DNA of 42,624 nucleotides. Source: Longimicrobium sp. (GTDB lineage Bacteria; Gemmatimonadota; Gemmatimonadetes; Longimicrobiales; Longimicrobiaceae). Every line of letters begins with the position of its first letter. The first letter of the stretch is position 1. Position numbers and translations under genes: made by a program. The notes below the pieces were generated by a model. The model searched no databases. It was not told the origin of the DNA and saw only the letters and a program-made list of their open reading frames with translations. Positions 554 through 34,074 of the stretch are shown piece by piece. The DNA is taken from positions 1-42,624 of the forward strand of contig NZ_DATIND010000142.1 in the NCBI RefSeq assembly GCF_035474595.1. The letters are read 5' to 3'.

Positions 554-2455
554 TCAGTGCGAGGCAGGGGTTTGCGTCGCGAATGGGTCGAGGGAGCGGA
601 AGGCGGCGCGGATCTGGGCGTCGGTGAGGAGCGGGGCCTGCGGGAGGAGGGGGCGCGCTGCGTCCAGGGCGGGGATCTCGCGCGCGTGGGCGCGCATCCA
701 TGCCTCCAGGCCGCGGAGCGCGCGGGCGTTGGCCTGGCCGTGCGGCGTGCGGTCGCCCGCGGAGGGCTGAAGGATGGCGGTGAGCGCCAGCCGCGGCACC
801 GGCGCGAAGGCGATCTCGGACAGCTTGGCGCGGTACTCCAGGTCGGCCGCCGTCAGCGCCAGCCCAAGCCGGTGGTCGATGGCGTGCCGGCCTTCGTGCG
901 CGAAGATGCCGCTCCGCACCGCGGCGGCGTCGTACGCGGCGATGAACGCGCGCTGCAGTTCCGCGCCCGCGAGGCCGCGCGCCCGCAGGCTGTCGGCGAT
1001 CTGCCGCGTGCCGTCGCGCTGGAGGCGGTCGAGCACGCCGGGGAGAAAGCCGTACGGTGCCCGGGCCGCGCGCCCCCAGTCGTCCGCGCTGTCGGCGGGA
1101 AGGCGGCGGGCGCGCTCGTCGCCGGGGCGCGGCTCGACCCAGCGCGCCCACGCCTGGAGCGCACCGCCGGCGCGCGCGGGGCGGACCTCGTAGATGGCCG
1201 CCGTGTCCGCCCAGCCGCCGTGCGCCGCCTCGCCGTCCCACGCCCAGGTCTGGAACCCGTCGGACGCCAGCTCGTCGAGCACCACGTAGCGCAGCCGCGC
1301 GGCGTGGCCGTACTGCTCCACCGTCTCGGCGCGGTCCAGCACGGCGTGGCCCAGGTGCAGGTCGAAGTATCCCGCCGTGTTGCCGAGCCCCGCGTAGGTG
1401 CCGAACCGCTCGTGGACCGCCGACTGGAACGCCGCCCAGCCGAACGCGGGCGCGGCGCCGGCGGGGAAGAGCGCCGGCCACAGGCGCCGCGCCCCGGCGT
1501 CCAGGTCGCGGCGGAAGGCGCGCGAGTCGCCCTTCCCCAGCGCGGTCAGCCGGTAGTACTCGTCGGTGGTGGCGCGGACGCGGCGCAGGAAGGCGGCGTA
1601 CGCGCCGACCTCGGCGATCTCGGGCGACGCGGGAAGGCCGGCGCCCACCGCCGCCGCCTCGTCGAACATCCGCGACGCGGCGAGGGCGCGGAAGAGGGCG
1701 AGGTGCTCGGCACGCACCGAATCGCCCCCCACCCAGCGGGGAAGGAGCGTGGAGAGGGTGGAGTCCGCGCCGCCCAGCTCGTTGCCGGGCTGGCCGAGGG
1801 TGGTGAGGAAGTAGGACTTCCACCCGGCCAGCGCCGCGGGCCCGTCGCCCGACAGAACGGCGGTGGTGACGAGCTGGCGCGCGGGGCGCAGCATGCCGGG
1901 CCCCGCGCTCACCACCGGCTGCAGCATGGCGACGGCGAGATGGAGCGCGCTCTCGTCGCGGCGGGAGGGCGCTCGCCCGGCCAGGCGCGCCTCCAGCACC
2001 GGCTGGGTGGCGGCGGCGCCGAACTGGGTGGCGGCCTCGGCCGAATCGTCGAGCGATTCCGCCATCTCCATCGCCTTGCGGGCCGCCTCGCGCGCGTCGG
2101 CGAAGCGGCGGCGGGCGGTCTCCATCCGCGCGAGCCCGGCCCACGCCTGCGACGCCAGGGCGCCGGCGTTCAGCGCGGCCGAGTAGTGCGCTCGCCCCGC
2201 GTTCACGTCGCCGCGGTAGCGCCAGGCGAGCAGCGCCAGCATCTGCTCGGCCCGCGAGCGGTCGCGCGGGGCGGCGCCGGGGAGGTGGGCGGCGGAGTCG
2301 AGCAGCGCTTCCGCATCTCCCAGGCGGTGCTGGATGAACGCCTCGGCGCCGCGCACCACCAGCCGCTCCGCGCGCGCCTCAGCCGCAGGGTCGCTCGGGC
2401 GGGCGCAGGTCGCGGCGATGCAGAAGACCAGCAGCGGTGCGGGGAAGCGGCGCAT
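554..2455 (-). CDS. Exported or lipoprotein-like protein with helical repeats and an HExxH motif
   Basis: A 633-residue protein. The chosen ATG at 2455 begins MRRFPAPLLVFCIAATCARP, a short basic plus hydrophobic segment ending in a cysteine, so it is probably a secreted or lipid-anchored protein, although the lipobox (AATC) is not ideal. The first half is rich in alanine and arginine with helical-repeat (TPR-like) spacing around residues 30-150. The C-terminal third contains HEGRH beginning at residue 520, preceded by hydrophobic IFA and followed about 24 residues later by LSEIAF, a possible third metal ligand. This is the arrangement of a gluzincin-type zinc peptidase, but I do not recognise a named family. 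An in-frame upstream extension to 2515 lacks signal-peptide character. It lies downstream of the DUF5916 gene on the same strand, separated by a long hairpin. Function unknown; peptidase activity is inference from one motif. Confidence 0.8.
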   Translation of the reverse strand: MRRFPAPLLVFCIAATCARPSDPAAEARAERLVVRGAEAFIQHRLGDAEALLDSAAHLPGAAPRDRSRAEQMLALLAWRYRGDVNAGRAHYSAALNAGALASQAWAGLARMETARRRFADAREAARKAMEMAESLDDSAEAATQFGAAATQPVLEARLAGRAPSRRDESALHLAVAMLQPVVSAGPGMLRPARQLVTTAVLSGDGPAALAGWKSYFLTTLGQPGNELGGADSTLSTLLPRWVGGDSVRAEHLALFRALAASRMFDEAAAVGAGLPASPEIAEVGAYAAFLRRVRATTDEYYRLTALGKGDSRAFRRDLDAGARRLWPALFPAGAAPAFGWAAFQSAVHERFGTYAGLGNTAGYFDLHLGHAVLDRAETVEQYGHAARLRYVVLDELASDGFQTWAWDGEAAHGGWADTAAIYEVRPARAGGALQAWARWVEPRPGDERARRLPADSADDWGRAARAPYGFLPGVLDRLQRDGTRQIADSLRARGLAGAELQRAFIAAYDAAAVRSGIFAHEGRHAIDHRLGLALTAADLEYRAKLSEIAFAPVPRLALTAILQPSAGDRTPHGQANARALRGLEAWMRAHAREIPALDAARPLLPQAPLLTDAQIRAAFRSLDPFATQTPASH

Positions 2456-2546
2456 CGTCGGGGGATGGAAGACCGGAAGGCGGCAAGCGGTGCATCCCGA
2501 CGTAAATCCCCGCATCCCCTCTCGTCAATGATCCTGAACAGATGAA

Positions 2547-2628
2547 TCTCACACGGAGGGAACGGAGGTAACGGAGAACTCACCGCGAGCGCGGTTTTCC
2601 TCCGTTTCCTCCGTTCCCTCGCGTGAAA
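2547..2628. repeat. Long hairpin repeat, family D, copy 1
   Basis: Imperfect inverted repeat. The left arm begins TCTCACACGGAGGGAACGG and the right arm ends CCGTTCCCTCGCGTGAAA, with a GC-rich loop. It lies between two minus-strand genes and could act as a transcription stop for the DUF5916 gene, but no U-tract follows. It is a diverged member of the family seen at 16317-16396, 39348-39415, 40205-40283 and the right window edge. Confidence 0.65.
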
Positions 2629-2643
2629 CCGATCTTTCGGTAT

Positions 2644-5349
2644 CTACAGGTTCAACCAGTAGTTGAACTTCACGAGCAGGACGTTGGTGCTGGGCGAGCG
2701 GTCGCCGTCGAACAGGCGGCCGAAGTCGCGCGCGAAGCGGAACTGGCCGTTCGGCTCGAAGTTCTCGCGCCCCTGGCTCCACACCACGAACAGCGTCGAC
2801 CCCGGCCGGTACTCCCAGCGCAGCACCGTGTTGGTGCGCAGCGCCTTGAAGTTGAAGTCCGGCCGTCCGAACGAGAACTCCGGTGTCCCGTCGCCGTCGC
2901 GGTCCACCGAGTACAGCCCGTCCTCGAGCGAGAGCGCGTTGCCGAAGTGGCTGAAGCGCGAATCGAAGCTCTTCGCGTGCGGGTCCACCACCTCCTTCAG
3001 TCCCCCGTACTCGCCCGTGGCCACGAACGGCTGCGCGTAGAAGTCCAGCGTGAGGCGCGGGGTGAAGGCGTAGCTCGCGCGCGTGGTCAGCGACACCGAG
3101 CGCTGGCGGATGTCGGCGAACACGTAGTGCGGCTGCCCCGCCGCATCCCGCGGCGCCGAGACGAAGATCCACGGGTCGCGGCCGACGGTGAGGCTGGGCC
3201 CCGCCGTCAGGCGCAGCCGCGCGCCGGCCCGCAGCGTGGCGTCGGTCCCCACGCTCCAGCTGTGCCCCACCGTGCTCCACTCGTTGTAGCCGTCGGCCCA
3301 GATGTCGCCCGAAAGGCGGCGGCGCGGGTCGCTGTTGATCCCCGCGTCGTAGTGCGTGTACGCCGGGCCGATGAACGACGGCCCGCCGCGCAGGATGTCG
3401 GTGCGCAGCGCCGGGAACTCGGTGTCGCTGCCGAAGTAGCCGCTCCAGTTGTTCCGCAGGTCGGCCGAGCCGTTCACGTTCATTCCCGTGGTCAGCCGCT
3501 CGCCCGCGAAGTTGTAGCCGTTCCACGCGTTGAAGTTGGCGTCCCAGCGCAGGAAGCGCTTCGTGGGCTCGAAGTGGTTGTAGCCGATCCATCCCCCCTG
3601 CAGGAACCAGTCGGTGCTGCGCTGGAACCCCAGGTCGTTCATCTCCAGCCCCGGCGAGCGGGCGTGCGCGTACAGGCCGCCGCGCATGTGGCCGCCGCCG
3701 GTCTTCTCCACCTTCACGTCGGCCAGCCACCCGCTCAGCGAGGTGCGCGTGGGGTCGAACTCCACGTCGGCCGCGTCGGGGCGCTGGAAGTAGTGGCCGG
3801 GGCCCAGCTGGATGCGCGAGATGGCGGCGGTGCTCCCGCGCACCAGCGAGCCCAGCGCCGACGCGCGCAGCTCGTAGTTGCCGCCCCAGAAGCGGTGCCG
3901 CCCGTCTACCCCCGCCAGGAAGGCGTCGCGGGTGAGCAGCGAGAGCCGCGGATCGCCGGCGTCCAGGTCGCGCACGGTGGCGCTGGCGATGGCGCCGATG
4001 GCGCTCTGGCCGCCGCGGAAGTCCTGGATCACGCGGCCCACGAAGTAGTTGGTGAGCGGCTCCACCGTGGCCGCGCGGCGGACGCCCGACGGGTCGATGT
4101 ACTCCGTCTGCTCGCGCGCGGTCAGCGCGTCCAGGATCCCCACCGAGAGCCCGCCCGCCGTCTTCCCGCTGACCTTGGCGGCGCCCAGGATGGTGGTGTT
4201 CTGCGGGCGCTCGGCGAAGTCGCTGGCCGGGTCCGAGGCCTGCGGCTCGCGCCCCAGCCGGCGCGAGTAGAAGGGCTGGTCGTTGCCGAAGCCGCCGCTG
4301 CGCACGAAGTACGGAAAGCTCACGCCGAAGCGGAAGATGTCGGCCCCCTCGGTGAAGAACGGCCGCCGCTCGGAGAAGAAGGTCTCGAACGCGGTCAGGT
4401 TCACCTGGCTGGGGTCGGCCTCCACCTGCCCGAAGTCGGGGTTGATGGTGGCGGTAAGGGTGAGGTTGGAGGTCAGCCCGTAGCGCACGTCGGCGCCGAC
4501 GCCGCCCACCGCGTCGTTGGGCGAGAAGAAGGGGTCGCCCGGGCGGTTGGGCGCGCGGGTGAGGCGGGCCAGGGTGTAGGGGATCACCTCCAGCCGCCGC
4601 CCCGAGCTCACCCCGCGGATGCCGTGCAGCTCGCCGAACTGCGAGACGAAGCCGTTGCGGTCCGGCCGGATGTTGGACCAGTCGTCGCGCTCGTTGCGCC
4701 GGGCGATGTCGCGCCCCACGTCGAACCCCCACGTCTGCCCGGCGGAGTCCGCGCGGGTGCTGAAGCGCAGCTGCGACAGCGGGATGCGGTACTCGGCCAC
4801 CCACCCGGCGCTGTCCACCTTCGTCTCCGACTCCCACACCGCGTCCCACCCCACGTCCTCGCTGGTGTCGTTGGAGTGGAAGACGTCCTTCTGCACGTTG
4901 GCCGGGTTCACCGAGAAGCGGAATGCCGTGCGCTTGTCGTTGTAGCTGTCGATGGTCACGTGGATCCACTCGCTCGTGACCCCGCTCATGTCGCGCCGGC
5001 CCACGGGGGCGACGATGGAGTCGGGCGACGGGTCGAAGGCGCGGACGCCCACGTAGATGGCCGCGTCGTCGTACACCACGCGCGCCTCGGTGCGGAGCGA
5101 GGCGGCCGAGCCGGGGTTGGGCACCCGCTGCACGAAGTCGGCGAGCGGCTGCGCCTGCGCCCACGCGGCGTCGTCCAGCACGCCGTCCAGCTTCGGGGCC
5201 GCGCCGGTGATGCGCACCGCCGTTCCCGGGCGGCGTGCCTCCGCCGCCGCGGCGCGCGCGGGCGGGGCGGACTGCTGCGACTGCGCCAGGGCGACGGCCG
5301 GATGGAAGGAGACGAGGAGCAGCGCGGGAAGGGTGATGCGTGACCGCAT
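2644..5349 (-). CDS. DUF5916 protein: CBM9-like N-terminus and predicted outer-membrane barrel
   Basis: A 901-residue protein starting at ATG 5349, with GGAG 8 nt upstream (5358-5361). Residues 1-22 are a signal peptide (MRSRITLPALLLVSFH, cleavage near ALAQ). Residues about 45-220 resemble a carbohydrate-binding family 9 type domain (PKLDGVLDDAAWAQA, AIYVGVRAFD, WVAEYRIPLSQLRF), which is the usual start of DUF5916 proteins. The rest is a long series of alternating aromatic and polar strands ending in aromatic LVKFNYWLNL, typical of a C-terminal outer-membrane barrel. The motif FFSERRPFFTEGADIFRFG is characteristic of this family. The substrate is unknown; the family often accompanies polymer breakdown or uptake genes, but none is adjacent. 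The upstream in-frame extension to 5448 is rejected because it would bury the signal peptide. Confidence 0.9.
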   Translation of the reverse strand: MRSRITLPALLLVSFHPAVALAQSQQSAPPARAAAAEARRPGTAVRITGAAPKLDGVLDDAAWAQAQPLADFVQRVPNPGSAASLRTEARVVYDDAAIYVGVRAFDPSPDSIVAPVGRRDMSGVTSEWIHVTIDSYNDKRTAFRFSVNPANVQKDVFHSNDTSEDVGWDAVWESETKVDSAGWVAEYRIPLSQLRFSTRADSAGQTWGFDVGRDIARRNERDDWSNIRPDRNGFVSQFGELHGIRGVSSGRRLEVIPYTLARLTRAPNRPGDPFFSPNDAVGGVGADVRYGLTSNLTLTATINPDFGQVEADPSQVNLTAFETFFSERRPFFTEGADIFRFGVSFPYFVRSGGFGNDQPFYSRRLGREPQASDPASDFAERPQNTTILGAAKVSGKTAGGLSVGILDALTAREQTEYIDPSGVRRAATVEPLTNYFVGRVIQDFRGGQSAIGAIASATVRDLDAGDPRLSLLTRDAFLAGVDGRHRFWGGNYELRASALGSLVRGSTAAISRIQLGPGHYFQRPDAADVEFDPTRTSLSGWLADVKVEKTGGGHMRGGLYAHARSPGLEMNDLGFQRSTDWFLQGGWIGYNHFEPTKRFLRWDANFNAWNGYNFAGERLTTGMNVNGSADLRNNWSGYFGSDTEFPALRTDILRGGPSFIGPAYTHYDAGINSDPRRRLSGDIWADGYNEWSTVGHSWSVGTDATLRAGARLRLTAGPSLTVGRDPWIFVSAPRDAAGQPHYVFADIRQRSVSLTTRASYAFTPRLTLDFYAQPFVATGEYGGLKEVVDPHAKSFDSRFSHFGNALSLEDGLYSVDRDGDGTPEFSFGRPDFNFKALRTNTVLRWEYRPGSTLFVVWSQGRENFEPNGQFRFARDFGRLFDGDRSPSTNVLLVKFNYWLNL

Positions 5350-7153: not shown

Positions 7154-7230
7154 GTATCGCATGTCTGTTCCCGATCAAGGTAGCTTTCGAGAAAAGAAAA
7201 GCCCCGCCGCCGCTATACCTCGAAAGGCTA

Positions 7231-7249
7231 CCCCAAGCGGAACTTGGGG
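7231..7249 (-). terminator. Possible terminator hairpin for the MFS gene
   Basis: CCCCAAG (7231-7237) pairs with CTTGGGG (7243-7249) around a 5-nt loop, 47 nt past the MFS stop codon. On the minus strand the next U-rich word (CTTTTCTTTTC) comes only about 30 nt later, so this is a weak call. Confidence 0.4.
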
Positions 7250-7296
7250 CTTCGCGGAACGACAGGGCTTCTGCGATGATGTAAATCGCGTCCGCG

Positions 7297-9820: not shown

Positions 9821-10417
9821 ATGATCGCCGGGATCGTGCTGGCCGCCGGGCGCTCGCGCCGCATGGGGCAGCCCAAGGCGTTCCTGCGGCTGGGCGGGGC
9901 CACCTTCCTGGAGCGCACCGTCGCCGCACTGCGGGAGGGGGGATGCGGCGAGATCGTGGTCGTCACCGGCCCGCCGGACGAGGCGCCCGCGGCCGAGACC
10001 GCGGTCGCGGCGGAGCGGCTGGGCGCGCGCGTGGCGGTCAATCCCCATACCGGCTCGGAGCAGGTGGACTCGCTCCGGGCCGGACTGCGTGCGCTGGGGG
10101 AGGGGATCGCCGCCGCCGCCGTCGTCCCCGTGGACGTCCCCGGCATCGCCGCGGCGACGGTGCGGGCGGTGATCGACGCGTTCGAGGGCGATCCCCATCC
10201 CCCCATCGTGCAGCCGTGCGACGGGGAGCGGCACGGGCACCCGGTGCTCTTCGCCCGCGCCCTCTGGCCGGAGCTGATGGCGGACCCGCTCCCCGACGGC
10301 GCGCGCACGGTGATCCACGCGCACGCCGCGCAGCGCGCCGAGGTCCGCGTCCCCCACCTCGCGGCGGACGTGGACACCCCCGAGGACTACCGCCGGCTGC
10401 TGGAGATGGAGGGGTGA
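9821..10417 (+). CDS. MobA/MocA-like nucleotidyltransferase for molybdenum cofactor
   Basis: A 198-residue protein starting at ATG 9821 (MIAGIVLAAGRSRRMGQPK). It has the family's nucleotide-binding loop LAAGxSxRMGxPK at residues 6-17, a mid-protein VVPVDVPGI corresponding to the metal-binding D-x-P region, and GHPVLF near residue 137. Members transfer CMP or GMP to molybdopterin or are general NTP transferases; next to XdhC the MocA-like role (making the cytidylated cofactor for xanthine dehydrogenase or CO dehydrogenase relatives) is most likely. Its stop overlaps the start of XdhC by 4 nt, so the two are translationally coupled. No molybdo-enzyme structural gene is in the window. Confidence 0.87.
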   Translation: MIAGIVLAAGRSRRMGQPKAFLRLGGATFLERTVAALREGGCGEIVVVTGPPDEAPAAETAVAAERLGARVAVNPHTGSEQVDSLRAGLRALGEGIAAAAVVPVDVPGIAAATVRAVIDAFEGDPHPPIVQPCDGERHGHPVLFARALWPELMADPLPDGARTVIHAHAAQRAEVRVPHLAADVDTPEDYRRLLEMEG

Positions 10418-11280
10418 CGGAGGGAGACGGGGCGCCGCTCGCGCTGGCCGAGGCCGTGCGCCTGGCCCGCGAGGCGCTGGACGGCGGCGAGCCGATGGTG
10501 AGCCTGGCGGTGATCGACTCGCGCGGGGATGGCGCGCCGCCACCGGGGACGCGGATGGCGGTGTGGGCGGACCGCCACCGCGGCACGCTGGGCGACCCGC
10601 GGCTGGACGCGCAGGCGATTGCCTTCGCGCGCGAGGCGCTGGTGCCGGGCGCGCGGCTGGGGACGCGCGAGATCTCCGCCGGGGGAGTCGTCGCCGAGGT
10701 CTACGCGGAGCCGCACCACGCGCCGCCGGAGCTGGTGATCGTGGGCGCGGGGCACATCGCCCGGCCGCTGTGCCGCATCGGCGCGCTGCTGGGCTTCCGC
10801 GTCACCGTGCTGGACGACCGCCCCGATTTCGCCACCCGCGAGCGCTTTCCCGAGGCGGAGGTGGTGCGCCGCGCCGACTTCTCGGACCCGTTCGCCGGCG
10901 TCTCCATCTCCCCCCGCACTCACCTGGTGCTGGTGACGCGCGGACACAAGTACGACTTCGAGGCGCTGCGCGACGTCCTCCGCCGTCCCCAACGGCCCGC
11001 GTACATCGGGATGGTGGGAAGCCGCCGCCGCACCCGCGCCGCGCTGGAGCAGCTGGCGCGCGAGGGGCTGGACGCGGAGCGCATCGCCGCCGTCCGCGCG
11101 CCGGTGGGGCTGGACGTGCACGCCGAGACGCCCGAGGAGATCGCCGTGGCCATCGCCGCCGAGATGGTGCTGCTGCGCCGCGGCGGAACCGGCCGCCCGC
11201 TGCGCGAAACCGAGCGCGTGTGGGAGCGCTGGGTGGCGCCGCGAGGTGAGTCTCGCAACCCGGACGAGGGCGCCCCGTAG
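10414..11280 (+). CDS. XdhC family protein (molybdo-enzyme maturation), degenerate N-terminal CoxI domain
   Basis: A 288-residue protein. The GTG start at 10414 overlaps the previous stop as GTGA, with GGAG a few bases upstream. The C-terminal Rossmann-type XdhC_C domain is clear (LVIVGAGHIARPLCRIGALL at about residues 108-127; later PAYIGMVGSRRRTRAAL and VGLDVHAETPEEIAVAIAAE). The N-terminal CoxI-like domain is recognisable only by position: the usual RxxGSTPRxxGxKM is replaced by IDSRGDGAPPPGTRMAVWAD. XdhC proteins bind molybdenum cofactor, stabilise it and help insert its sulphurated form into xanthine dehydrogenase family enzymes. A separate canonical CoxI domain is encoded at 14123, and may supply the missing N-terminal function. 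Confidence 0.88.
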   Translation: MTEGDGAPLALAEAVRLAREALDGGEPMVSLAVIDSRGDGAPPPGTRMAVWADRHRGTLGDPRLDAQAIAFAREALVPGARLGTREISAGGVVAEVYAEPHHAPPELVIVGAGHIARPLCRIGALLGFRVTVLDDRPDFATRERFPEAEVVRRADFSDPFAGVSISPRTHLVLVTRGHKYDFEALRDVLRRPQRPAYIGMVGSRRRTRAALEQLAREGLDAERIAAVRAPVGLDVHAETPEEIAVAIAAEMVLLRRGGTGRPLRETERVWERWVAPRGESRNPDEGAP

Positions 11281-11339: not shown

Positions 11340-12371
11340 GTGTACCGCACCTGCATCTTCTGCTCGGCGGACCTGGGGACGAACGACTCGCTGGAGGCGT
11401 TCCCCGTGTCGAAGAGCATTGCGTTCGACGGCTGGAAGGGCCGCCTCTGGGCTATCTGCCCCAAGTGCGCGCGCTGGAACCTGGCGCCGCTGGAGGAGCG
11501 CTGGGAGGCGGTGGAGGCCGCCGACCGGCTGTTCACCGACGCGCGGCTGCGCGTGCAGAGCGAGAACGTGGGGCTGGCCAGGCTGCGCGACGGCACGCGG
11601 CTGATCCGCATCGGCCAGGCGCTGCCGGGCGAGATGGCGGCCTGGCGCTACGGCGACCAGCTGGTGAAGCGCCGCCGCCACTACCTGCTGGTCACCGGCG
11701 CCGCCGCGGCCGCAGGGATGGCGATCCTGGGCGGGTTCGCGTGGCTGACCGCCACGGGCGGCTTCTACTCGCTGGTGAACGTCGGCGCCTCGCTGTACCG
11801 GCAGAAGAAGCAGCGCAAGGTGGTGTACCGCCTTCCCGCCGAGCGCAGCCCCACCGGGCGCGAGGTGCTGCTGCGCCGCTGGCACGCCGCGGGATCGGTG
11901 CTCCGCCCCGGCGTGGTGGACGGGATCGCGCTGGTGGTGCCCGACGCGGCGCGGAAGGACCCCAGGACCGACGGGTGGGGGAAGCCGAAGTACGTGGCCG
12001 AGCCGCTGGTGCTGCCCGACGTGGACGCGCGCGCCTTCCTGAACCGCGCGATGGTGCACCTGAACGAGAGCGGCGCCTCGCGCAGGCGGCTGGAGGGCGC
12101 CGTGTCGCTGCTGGGGCAGGCCGGCTCGGCCGAGGACTTCCTGCGCCGCACCGCCGCGCAGGGGCGCTCGCTGGGCAAGCGCCGCGACATGCCCGACCGC
12201 GCGCTGGCGGCCGAGGGCGCGCTGGCGCTGGAGATGGCGCTGCACGAGGAGCAGGAGCGCCGGGTGATGGCCGGCGAGCTGTCGCTGCTGGAGTCGGCCT
12301 GGCGCGAGGCCGAGGAGATCGCCTCGATCGCCGACAAGCTGGCGCTTTCCGCGGGCGCCGAGCTGGGGTGA
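11340..12371 (+). CDS. Unrecognised zinc-ribbon plus transmembrane protein, paralogue 1
   Basis: A 343-residue protein starting at GTG 11340, with GGAAGGA just upstream. Two CxxC pairs (C5/C8 in CIFCSADLGTN; C40/C43 in CPKCARWNLAP) suggest a zinc ribbon. Conserved EERWEAVE, then DGTRLIRIG and AAWRYGDQL follow at residues 52-108. Residues about 115-142 form one or two membrane-spanning segments; the remainder is a soluble region ending in an acidic/basic amphipathic stretch (LALEMALHEEQERR, ELSLLESAWREAEE). The second copy at 12480 shares all of these. I do not recognise a named family. It sits 59 nt after XdhC on the same strand. Function unknown; a cytosolic metal-binding head on a membrane anchor is inference. 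Confidence 0.85.
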   Translation: MYRTCIFCSADLGTNDSLEAFPVSKSIAFDGWKGRLWAICPKCARWNLAPLEERWEAVEAADRLFTDARLRVQSENVGLARLRDGTRLIRIGQALPGEMAAWRYGDQLVKRRRHYLLVTGAAAAAGMAILGGFAWLTATGGFYSLVNVGASLYRQKKQRKVVYRLPAERSPTGREVLLRRWHAAGSVLRPGVVDGIALVVPDAARKDPRTDGWGKPKYVAEPLVLPDVDARAFLNRAMVHLNESGASRRRLEGAVSLLGQAGSAEDFLRRTAAQGRSLGKRRDMPDRALAAEGALALEMALHEEQERRVMAGELSLLESAWREAEEIASIADKLALSAGAELG

Positions 12372-12479
12372 TGCGGAGACCGGAGTCGTCTCGCTCTCCC
12401 TTGGACAGGGAGACGGGTGGGAGATCGTTTGATCTCTGGCCAAAATGCCCGACGCACCCGCGGAGGAGGTGACGGGGTG

Positions 12480-13496
12480 ATGTACCGCCACTGCATCTAC
12501 TGCTCGGCCGACCTGGGGACGAACCAGGAGCTGGAGGCGTTTCCGGTCGGCCGCACCGTCGCGTTCGATGCGGCGAAGGGGCGGCTCTGGGCCGTGTGCC
12601 GCAAGTGCGCGCGCTGGAACCTGGCGCCCATCGAGGAGCGCTGGGAGGCGGTGGAGGACGCCGAGCGGCGCTTCGTGGGGTCGCGCCTGCGCGTGCAGGC
12701 GGAGAGCATCGGGGTGGCGAAGGCGCCGGACGGGACGCGGCTGGTGCGCATCGGCACCGCGCCGCCGGGGGAGCTGGCCGCCTGGCGCTACGGCTCGGAG
12801 CTGCGGCGGCGGCACCGCTGGTTCTGGCCCGCCGTAGCCGTCGGCGTGGGGGCGGCGCTCGTCCACGTGCTGCCGTTCGGGATGGCGGCGGCGTTCGCGC
12901 CCGGAGTCTACTTCGGCGTGGCGCAGTACGTGGGCTCCACGCGCCGGGTGATCCGCATCCCCGCGCCCGAGTCGCCCACCGGCGAGGCGCTGGACCTGCG
13001 CGGCGTGAACGTCTCCGGCGCGGTGGTGCGCCCCGGCGCCGGGCCCGGCGACATCCGGCTGGAGGTGCCGACGGACGGGCTCTGGGACCGCATCCGCGGC
13101 TCCGGCGCGCGGCCGGACCGGCCGGTGGTGACGCTGCACGGCGACGCCGCCCGGCGTACGGTGGAGCGCGCGATGCCGCTGGTGAACGCGTTCGGCGGGA
13201 GCCGCGCCACGGTGGGCCAGGCCGTCACCGAGCTGACCCGCCACGAGAGCGCGGCCGCGGTGCTGGACAGCCTGGCGCGCAACGGCGCCCGGCTGGGGGT
13301 GACGATGGTGACGGGGAGCCACCGCACCGGCGGCGCGCCCCTCACCGGCGCCCGCGCGCTGGCCTTCGAGATGGCCCTGCACGACGAGACCGAGCGCCGC
13401 GCCCTGCACGGCGAGCTGAAGCTGCTGGAGAGCGCCTGGCGCGAGGCGGAGAGCCTGGCGGCGATCGCGGATCGGCTGGCGGCGCCGGGGGACTGA
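12480..13496 (+). CDS. Unrecognised zinc-ribbon plus transmembrane protein, paralogue 2
   Basis: A 338-residue protein. ATG at 12480 is chosen because it is preceded by GGAGGAGGTGA (12462-12472) and gives the same MYR-x-C start as paralogue 1; the longer frame from 12417 is rejected. C5/C8 and C40/C43 pairs are conserved (CIYCSADLGTN, CRKCARWNLAP), as are EERWEAVE, DGTRLVRIG and AAWRYGSEL. A hydrophobic segment covers residues about 115-145, then a soluble domain differs from paralogue 1 in its middle (residues 170-250) but returns to close similarity at the C-terminus (EMALHDETERRALHGELKLL). The divergent centre with conserved ends suggests related proteins with different partners or ligands. 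The stop codon is followed immediately by a heptamer array. Confidence 0.85.
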   Translation: MYRHCIYCSADLGTNQELEAFPVGRTVAFDAAKGRLWAVCRKCARWNLAPIEERWEAVEDAERRFVGSRLRVQAESIGVAKAPDGTRLVRIGTAPPGELAAWRYGSELRRRHRWFWPAVAVGVGAALVHVLPFGMAAAFAPGVYFGVAQYVGSTRRVIRIPAPESPTGEALDLRGVNVSGAVVRPGAGPGDIRLEVPTDGLWDRIRGSGARPDRPVVTLHGDAARRTVERAMPLVNAFGGSRATVGQAVTELTRHESAAAVLDSLARNGARLGVTMVTGSHRTGGAPLTGARALAFEMALHDETERRALHGELKLLESAWREAESLAAIADRLAAPGD

Positions 13497-13500
13497 AGTG

Positions 13501-13604
13501 CCAAGTGCCAAGTGCCAAGTGCCAAGTGCCAAGTGCCAAGTGCCAAGTGCCAAGTGCCAAGTGCCAAGTGCCAAGTGCCAAGTGCCAAGTGCCAAGTGCC
13601 AAGT
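13501..13604 (+). repeat. Heptamer tandem array, CCAAGTG, about 15 units
   Basis: Uninterrupted 7-nt repeats (CCAAGTG) beginning 4 nt after the stop codon of the preceding gene. All units I can read are identical. Because 7 is not a multiple of 3, all frames stay open and create long artificial open frames with repeated peptides on the minus strand. Related arrays lie at 33395-33497 and 34040-34074. Confidence 0.95.
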
Positions 13605-13608
13605 CCTG

Positions 13609-13715
13609 AAACGCACAGAGAGACGTCATCCTGAGGCCGGCCACACCGTCGTTGTCCCAGCATGAGCGGTTGCAGGCCGAAGGATCTGTGGGCGAGGTCG
13701 CACGTGCGCTTCCGG
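13609..13715 (+). repeat. Dispersed element B, copy 3
   Basis: Begins AACGCACAGAGAGACGTCAT with CCTGAGGCCGGCCA next, contains TTGCAGGCCGAAGGATCTGT and ends with a GTCGCACGTGCG-like word. It is paired tail to tail with copy 4, making a composite of about 240 nt. Confidence 0.68.
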
Positions 13716-13750
13716 ATTGCACGATCGGCTGTACCGAAAGCCTTGATGTG

Positions 13751-13846
13751 CTTCCCGGCTGACGTGCTGGACAGGGTATGGATCCTTCGGCCTGCAACGT
13801 TCTGCGCGGAACCCCGATGCGGCGTGGTCGGCCTCAGGATGACGTC
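13751..13846 (-). repeat. Dispersed element B, copy 4 (inverted)
   Basis: Reads on the minus strand from GACGTCATCCTGAGGCCGAC to a GTCCAGCACGTCAGCCGGG end; it is the best match to copy 1 at 131-218. The region 13847-14069 that follows holds no gene I can support. Confidence 0.7.
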
Positions 13847-14069
13847 AGGCGAATGGGGCGGAAGGCCCCGCTCTCAGGACGCATCGGGATGCAGTCGCAG
13901 CAGCTTGGGTGTTCGCGAGCCGCGGCACCTGCGTGAGGGATGCGCGCCCGGAGGGCCGGGACGGCGCCGCGCCGGGATGATGCCGGGAAATCCGCGCGGA
14001 TGCGTGGCGCGGCGGTGGCCCGGCGCGGTTGGCAACGGTCGTATCGTTGCCTACCGCGCGCGCAGCCCG

Positions 14070-14122: not shown

Positions 14123-14473
14123 GTGACCGAAGACCTGGCCGTCTACACCGCCGCGGAAATGGCCGCGAGAGAAGGGCGCGCCGCCGTGCTCGCCACTATC
14201 GTGCGCTGCCGCGGCTCCACGCCGCGCGGGTGCGGGAGCAAGATGCTGGTGGACCCCGAGCGCGGCCTGACCGGCACCGTGGGCGGCGGCTGCGGTGAGG
14301 GCGAGGTGATCGAGGCCGCGCGCGAGGTGCTGGCCACCGGCACCCCCCGCCTGGTGCACGTGGACCTGACCGAGGACCTGTTCTCGTGGAGCCCCGCCGT
14401 GTGCGGCGGCACCTTCGACGTTTTCCTGGAGCGGGTGGACCCCGCCGCAACCGCGCACGCAGGAGCCCGATGA
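14123..14473 (+). CDS. Stand-alone XdhC/CoxI N-terminal domain protein
   Basis: A 116-residue protein from GTG 14123 (weak AAAGG upstream). It carries the canonical CoxI motif missing from the XdhC at 10414: RCRGSTPRGCGSKMLVD, then GLTGTVGGGCGEGEVI and a SPAVCGGTFDVFLE end. It has no Rossmann domain. Members of this family take part in maturation of molybdenum hydroxylases. Its stop overlaps the start of the dehydrogenase gene (ATGA), so the two are translationally coupled. With 10414-11280 it could form a split XdhC; that is inference. Confidence 0.85.
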   Translation: MTEDLAVYTAAEMAAREGRAAVLATIVRCRGSTPRGCGSKMLVDPERGLTGTVGGGCGEGEVIEAAREVLATGTPRLVHVDLTEDLFSWSPAVCGGTFDVFLERVDPAATAHAGAR

Positions 14474-33394: not shown

Positions 33395-33497
33395 AAGTCC
33401 TAAGTCCTAAGTCCTAAGTGCTGAGTGCTGAGTGCTGAGTGCTGAGTGCTGAGTGCTGAGTGCTGAGTGCTGAGTGCTGAGTGCTGAGTGCTGAGTG
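33395..33497 (+). repeat. Heptamer array with unit drift: AAGTCCT then GAGTGCT
   Basis: Three AAGTCCT units (33395-33415), one hybrid AAGTGCT (33416-33422), then about ten GAGTGCT units to 33497. The hybrid unit at the border shows one word turning into the other. It begins about 35 nt upstream of the S41 protease start. Confidence 0.93.
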
Positions 33498-34039
33498 GGG
33501 GATCTTCGTGGCCGCGGCATCTGCGGGGGCGCTTCGCGCCGGGCTGGCCCTCATCCCCTCCGGCCCCCCTTCTCTCTCGACAGCAGGAGAAGAGGGGAGA
33601 ACTCAGCGCGCGCACTGGTTTCAACTCGCTCCGGAACTCCCCACTTGGGGCTTAGGACTCAGGACTTAGGACGCAGGAGATCTACGCACGGTTGTTCGGA
33701 TGGAGCTCGAAAGGTGGGGAAAGACGGGTCGGGATGAAGATGCCGGCGGGAGCGCGGACCTGTCTCCGCGCACGGACGGCCAAGCCAGGGATGCGGCCGG
33801 CGCGACGCCAGATGTTTTGTCACCCCGCATGCGACTGGGTGGACGCGCGGGCGCTCACGAAGGTCACATCCTAAACGCCGGGATCGTCCTCGTCCAGAGT
33901 TTTGGCGATTGCAATACGCTATTCCGTGCTTCTCCCGACGCCATCGTCAGGAGTTTGCCCGACGCGCCGCGACCCGTCGACGCGGGAGGGCTTTCCCCTT
34001 CTCACCCCGCCGTTCCACCGTCACATCGATCTTCAACTC
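33498..34039. other. Gene-free segment flanked by inverted heptamer arrays
   Basis: Open frames here (for example a 120-codon frame from 33700) lack a ribosome site and end in repeat sequence, so I do not call a gene. A short reverse heptamer stretch (AGGACTC, AGGACTT) lies at 33654-33672. The base composition of 33870-33930 is lower in GC than the surroundings. Confidence 0.5.
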
Positions 34040-34074
34040 AGGACTTAGGACTTAGGACTTAGGACTTAGGACTT
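34040..34074 (-). repeat. Heptamer array, five AGGACTT units
   Basis: Exactly five AGGACTT units, the reverse complement of AAGTCCT at 33395-33415, ending 10 nt before the stop of the rhomboid gene. With the 33395 array it forms a 21-nt or longer inverted pair around the gene-free segment. Confidence 0.9.

Follow-up and report, generated by a model that had tools for sequence, protein, structure and literature searches.

PH domains are known in bacteria from the PF08000/DUF1696 and DUF304-type families (PMC2817789), and XdhC/CoxI genes are described as maturation genes of molybdo-enzymes (PMC2997495). The protein family reported here weakly resembles the former in the predicted fold of its variable domain, with 3dcx (DUF1696) and 3hsa (a PH structure from Shewanella) among the structural matches, but it adds a Cys4 head and a long C-terminal helix, and the match scores are low. 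The XdhC/CoxI genes adjoin family members in Longimicrobiaceae; they nevertheless encode different proteins, the adjacency is absent from the other families sampled and the slot can be empty. With zinc-ribbon heads in general, the family shares an N-terminal beta-rich segment in which 31 residues separate two CxxC knuckles, yet no Pfam zinc-ribbon model matches it consistently and its head runs on into a conserved alpha/beta part (~95 residues). We tentatively read its members as inner-membrane adaptors or receptors combining a shared head and tail with a diversified PH-like recognition domain.

The analyzed window, a stretch of 42,624 nucleotides from the Longimicrobium sp. assembly GCF_035474595.1, contains two such genes (Table 1), the sole family copies of this assembly. 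An initial annotation had noticed two adjacent genes for proteins of about 340 residues built on the same plan, and all of its motifs were located on the forward strand in both: MYR(T/H)CI(F/Y)CSADLGTN, C(P/R)KCARWNLAP, EERWEAVE and AAWRYG, together with a hydrophobic stretch and a helix at the C-terminus. For member 2 the ORF caller puts a longer start at 12417, and relatives begin at MY. With 49% identity over 335 aa (E 2.1e-79), a similarity far above chance, both sequences qualify as genuine tandem paralogues, as had been proposed. Member 1 is 86-87% identical to its orthologue in genome G008 and represents the first-position copy of the G008 and G001 arrays; the first copy in G002 and that in G009 come next in similarity. 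Member 2 has a clear orthologue in G008 only (76% identity).

Table 1. Positions of the two family members, their parts and the neighboring genes in the window
Feature	Position	Strand	Remark
MobA-like NTP transferase gene (NTP_transf_3)	9821..10417	+	neighbor, context only
XdhC gene (XdhC_CoxI + XdhC_C)	10414..11280	+	neighbor; stop 59 bases ahead of member 1
Family member 1	11340..12371	+	343 aa, GTG start; orthologous to the first-position copies of arrays
Member 1, conserved head, residues 1-108 (putative Cys4 zinc ribbon + alpha/beta part)	11340..11663	+	alignment with member 2 model
Member 1, Gly-rich hydrophobic stretch, 40 uncharged residues (114-153)	11679..11798	+	probable membrane hairpin
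Member 1, variable PH-like domain	11811..12074	+	borders approximate, by alignment
Member 1, conserved C-terminal helix	12202..12342	+	approximate
Family member 2	12480..13496	+	338 aa, ATG start
Member 2, conserved head, residues 1-108	12480..12803	+	model and conservation
Member 2, putative zinc-ribbon cysteines C5 (12492), C8 (12501), C40 (12597), C43 (12606)	12492..12608	+	
Member 2, hydrophobic stretch of 41 uncharged residues (114-154)	12819..12941	+	probable hairpin; model helices to 130 and 140-154
Member 2, variable PH-like domain, residues 155-240	12942..13199	+	model
Member 2, two short helices (242-254, 258-267) and variable loop	13200..13346	+	model
Member 2, conserved C-terminal helix, residues 290-334	13347..13481	+	model, conservation
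Short CoxI-domain gene (XdhC_CoxI only)	14138..14473	+	neighbor; part kept among relatives, open frame from 13940

Several further elements were observed in the window. Starting at the final base of the member 2 stop codon, the 7-base unit AAGTGCC is repeated perfectly in tandem (13496-13604, 15.6 copies), and comparable 7-base arrays lie at 33396-33497 and 34036-34074. Just past this repeat, at about 13625-13850, copies of GTCATCCTGAGGCC / GGCCTCAGGATGAC and of a GGCCGAAGGATC-type stretch that face each other were recognized by eye, which suggests an inverted element 3' of member 2. An Rfam match to the DUF3800-VIII RNA (54.4 bits, above gathering) lies at 7198-7271 on the reverse strand.

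Searches of the family libraries returned no consistent match to 99 members in Pfam and NCBIfam and no matching model in PHROGs, and sequence comparison with PDB chains gave no meaningful match. The PDB match 'Mussoc' (E 0.001-0.007), which we take to be a designed protein, was put aside as chance. For the whole protein, no confident fold match was obtained and Foldseek found none at E 0.001. Literature searches returned nothing relevant. Having no entry in the searched libraries and none in the papers found, the family is undescribed, in line with its initial description as an unrecognized zinc-ribbon/transmembrane family.

Predicted architecture of the family

The AlphaFold model of member 2, calculated with 99 sequences (pLDDT 85.9, pTM 0.82), predicts a beta-rich Cys4 head, after which come one helix, three strands and a second helix spanning residues 96-130. 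An amphipathic helix is placed between head and membrane hairpin. Conserved ends around a diverged center, as claimed from the two sequences at the outset, were found in the window pair with identities of 70% (residues 1-108), 27-28% (109-290) and 65% (291-end). Column entropies over 99 members follow the same pattern, amounting to 0.4-1.3 bits (1-100), 1.8-2.95 bits (121-300) and 0.7-1.0 bits (301-338). Except for N236, G239 and A248, all 41 invariant columns are located in the head, in helix 96-111 and in the C-terminal part.

Within the head, C5, C8 and C40 are invariant and C43 is conserved in at least 90% of the 99 members. The resulting near-invariant CxxC-x31-CxxC pattern, offering four ligand cysteines in two CxxC knuckles, suggests that the head binds zinc. 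The alpha/beta part drew halves of glyoxalase folds as its best matches (Z <3), which were not taken as kin.

The main rival explanation, which we regard as rather unlikely, starts from these cysteines: the proteins would be zinc- or redox-responsive regulators, with the Cys4 head sensing zinc, oxidants or membrane state, the PH-like/hairpin part setting the location and the paralogues being tuned to different signals. The near-invariance of the motif speaks for this reading, as do the small, dispersed and often monocistronic genes outside Longimicrobiaceae. However, conservation covers the whole head beyond the cysteines (W46, N47, L48, R54, W55, E56 and others), which points to a binding surface, the domain-library search recognized no DNA-binding or catalytic domain in the family, and nothing convincing stood out as a shared upstream motif.

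The initial annotation had also listed a membrane segment. Its hydrophobic character is confirmed, but a hairpin made of two short segments is the better reading. Between the head and the following domain lies an uncharged, Gly-rich stretch with a median length of 39 residues (160 members), and the net charge within ten residues is +3.4 before and +2.0 after this stretch. Since its length allows for two short membrane helices and it is positively flanked, it probably forms a hairpin with both ends in the cytoplasm (N-in/C-in). The strongest mutual-information pair inside it (118-147) fits this predicted topology.

Residues 155-240 of member 2 are modeled as five strands and a closing helix, and the domain predicted alone reached a pLDDT of 82. 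Among the 50 entries listed by VIA-align, nearly all belong to the PH superfamily by title (FERM F3, PTB, PH, GRAM and bacterial DUF1696), the best being 4tkn (Z 4.7, 68 residues, 3.2 A) in a range of only Z 2.7-4.7. Foldseek returned nothing below E 0.1 for the domain predicted alone, and the Pfam PH families (bPH_1-6, YcxB and others) matched none of the 99 members at E 0.1. Owing to the low Z-scores and the empty Foldseek result, we call this domain PH-like rather than a proven PH domain; in the model it looks like a PH fold, a beta-sandwich/barrel with a closing C-terminal helix, and it is not filed as a PH member. In YdbS (DUF304) and YcxB, too, a membrane hairpin precedes a PH-like domain.

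Co-variation between head and tail was rejected, being dominated by subfamily signal: 23 of the top 150 mutual-information pairs connect both parts versus 16.8 expected, which is not clearly above background.

Distribution and divergence of the paralogues

Of 298 sampled Gemmatimonadota genomes, 213 contained the family in a profile search, representing 89 of 119 genera; copy numbers from this search are lower bounds, as only seven candidates were scored per genome. Protein searches detected members in 48 of 61 relatives, frequently in tandem, and the largest count was 18 matches listed in one genome (G022, complete chromosome OX639991). From the 439 relatives in the named genome collection, the best 80 were read and belong to Gemmatimonadota by title or synteny, except for those not firmly assignable, namely L120 (labeled Chloroflexota) and a few labeled only 'uncultured bacterium'. 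L088, labeled Gammaproteobacteria, has a gene order in common with L118 and was counted as Gemmatimonadota. This is a large membrane-protein family found across Gemmatimonadota, the phylum within which the genomes were sampled. A mobile or phage origin was rejected, as searches of plasmids, phages and viral contigs (IMG/VR) gave no homologue.

Pairs with heads 90-95% identical show a bimodal middle identity with peaks in the 30s and 60s, so that paralogues hold the head constant while their middles drift apart. Purifying selection acts on close orthologues, most strongly on head and tail, and their dN/dS is mostly <1 (0.78-0.83 in the PH-like part of the window proteins). Given these values and the saturation of dS in distant pairs, positive selection in the middle was rejected. 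Within loci, the fourfold-site identity of the heads is mostly near background; hence purifying selection and not recent conversion explains most pairs. Gene conversion was dismissed as a general explanation for the conserved ends, with only L124, L083, L072 and two pairs in L038 looking converted. The clearest exception is the tandem pair L124:941-1960 and 1975-3036, with heads 97% and middles 36% identical and fourfold sites agreeing by 90% (head) versus 38% (middle), as if the head had undergone gene conversion or the middle had been replaced. Truncated, frame-broken or stop-interrupted members (L064:6498-7172, identical with L131:1948-2622; L180:4675-5675; L106:8001-9011) reflect either a turnover of copies by birth and death or errors in assembly.

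Amplified paralogues with constant ends and a fast-diverging middle could also constitute a recognition or self/non-self repertoire acting in defense, kin or phage recognition, a reading we consider improbable. The 1-18 copies, the tandem arrays with bimodal middle identity, the conversion-like head identity of a few tandem pairs such as L124 and the truncated or frameshifted copies would fit, this positive support being limited to amplification and divergence. Against it, no PADLOC family exceeded chance for the window proteins (DruM2 only, E 0.005 over 54 residues in the variable middle of one paralogue, none in the other), phages, plasmids and viral contigs yielded no homologue, the chromosomal slots are stable and close orthologues mostly remain below a dN/dS of 1.

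Genomic neighborhoods

The flanks of the window pair, a MobA-like/XdhC pair and a second CoxI domain gene, agree with those initially described (Table 1); XdhC_CoxI and XdhC_C domains are absent from the two members themselves. In Longimicrobiaceae the order is mobA-like, xdhC, one to five members, short coxI, sometimes an ELFV dehydrogenase, and a dksA/traR-type gene, and 13 of 16 xdhC orthologues are followed by one to five members on the same strand. The other three (G012, G017 and G019; loci L177, L178 and L179) carry coxI ~36, 126 and 157 bases after xdhC, leaving the family's slot empty; in G012 and G019 the whole genome lacks members.

Outside Longimicrobiaceae, no mobA/xdhC/coxI cluster occurred in the fetched loci, and among the matches listed in the other families sampled there was no xdhC within 15 kb of a member, the nearest lying ~17 kb away (G060). 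Members outside the mobA-xdhC slot adjoin DUF819 (22 loci), recF (a slot within Longimicrobiaceae), Ku/LigD, a Gfo/Idh-like gene and others, mostly in a clade-specific manner, with all names except DUF819 and DUF3500 assigned by reading the sequences. The DUF819 membrane gene (L051, L057-L059, L061, L065, L067, L081, L088, L091, L097 and others) is the most constant partner outside Longimicrobiaceae, and about half of its loci have a DUF3500 gene near. Adjoining the members of the DUF819 slot is a gene for a small unannotated membrane protein (cluster c3, 13 loci, no Pfam match), which in L051 encodes 239 aa and lies between the two members. Mapped on a FastTree phylogeny with long branches, the slot labels are strongly clustered, changing 11 times versus 49.9 times when shuffled.

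The restriction of the xdhC position to 13 of 16 loci in Longimicrobiaceae, the empty slots and the absence elsewhere mark it as lineage-bound synteny and not as a functional signature. The functional tie to molybdo-enzyme maturation drawn initially, for which a survey of homologous neighborhoods for xdhC/mocA had been proposed, was rejected on this synteny; the place beside molybdenum-enzyme genes appears to be a local accident of Longimicrobiaceae and is not supported as the function of the family. Of the two roles suggested with it, sensors with different ligands are possible, and the chaperone was argued from the neighborhood alone. Accessory factors that dock XdhC/MobA to the membrane are, correspondingly, very improbable: the same-strand place between xdhC and coxI would suit them, but the link is missing in every other family sampled and in the three Longimicrobiaceae genomes described above, and the molybdenum-hydroxylase genes of this genome are on other contigs.

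Least probable of all are membrane PH-pair-like transport or immunity proteins analogous to YdbS/YdbT-type proteins implicated in bacteriocin transport, for which the hairpin and PH-like domain noted above and the PH proteins implicated in enterocin DD14 transport (PMC8657885) would speak, but no bacterial PH family of Pfam matched the 99 members and no bacteriocin or peptide gene was among the recurrent neighbor clusters.

Proposed working

Returning to the adaptor/receptor reading, the architecture is fairly secure and the function is what we infer from it. The Gly-rich hairpin would hold a cytoplasmic zinc-ribbon/alpha-beta head and the long C-terminal helix at the inner membrane, with the strongly diverged PH-like domain placed between hairpin and C-terminal helix. 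Head and tail, being constant, would bind a common partner or one another and thereby provide a common output, while the PH-like domain of each paralogue may recognize a different protein or inner-leaflet ligand, so that duplication would yield a repertoire. That the heads have one partner in common is a guess, as no constant genomic partner was found across the neighborhoods.

Extended to the phylum, the constant zinc head and the C-terminal helix might represent one signaling or docking platform of a membrane-anchored receptor repertoire of Gemmatimonadota, its PH-like domain being diversified for different partners by duplication and by occasional gene conversion of the constant part; we regard this as doubtful. 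The family is present in about seven of ten genomes sampled from a phylum common in soil and sea. A name, an anatomy and the removal of the misleading molybdenum link direct annotators and experimenters to the right question, namely what the constant head binds and what the variable PH-like domains see.
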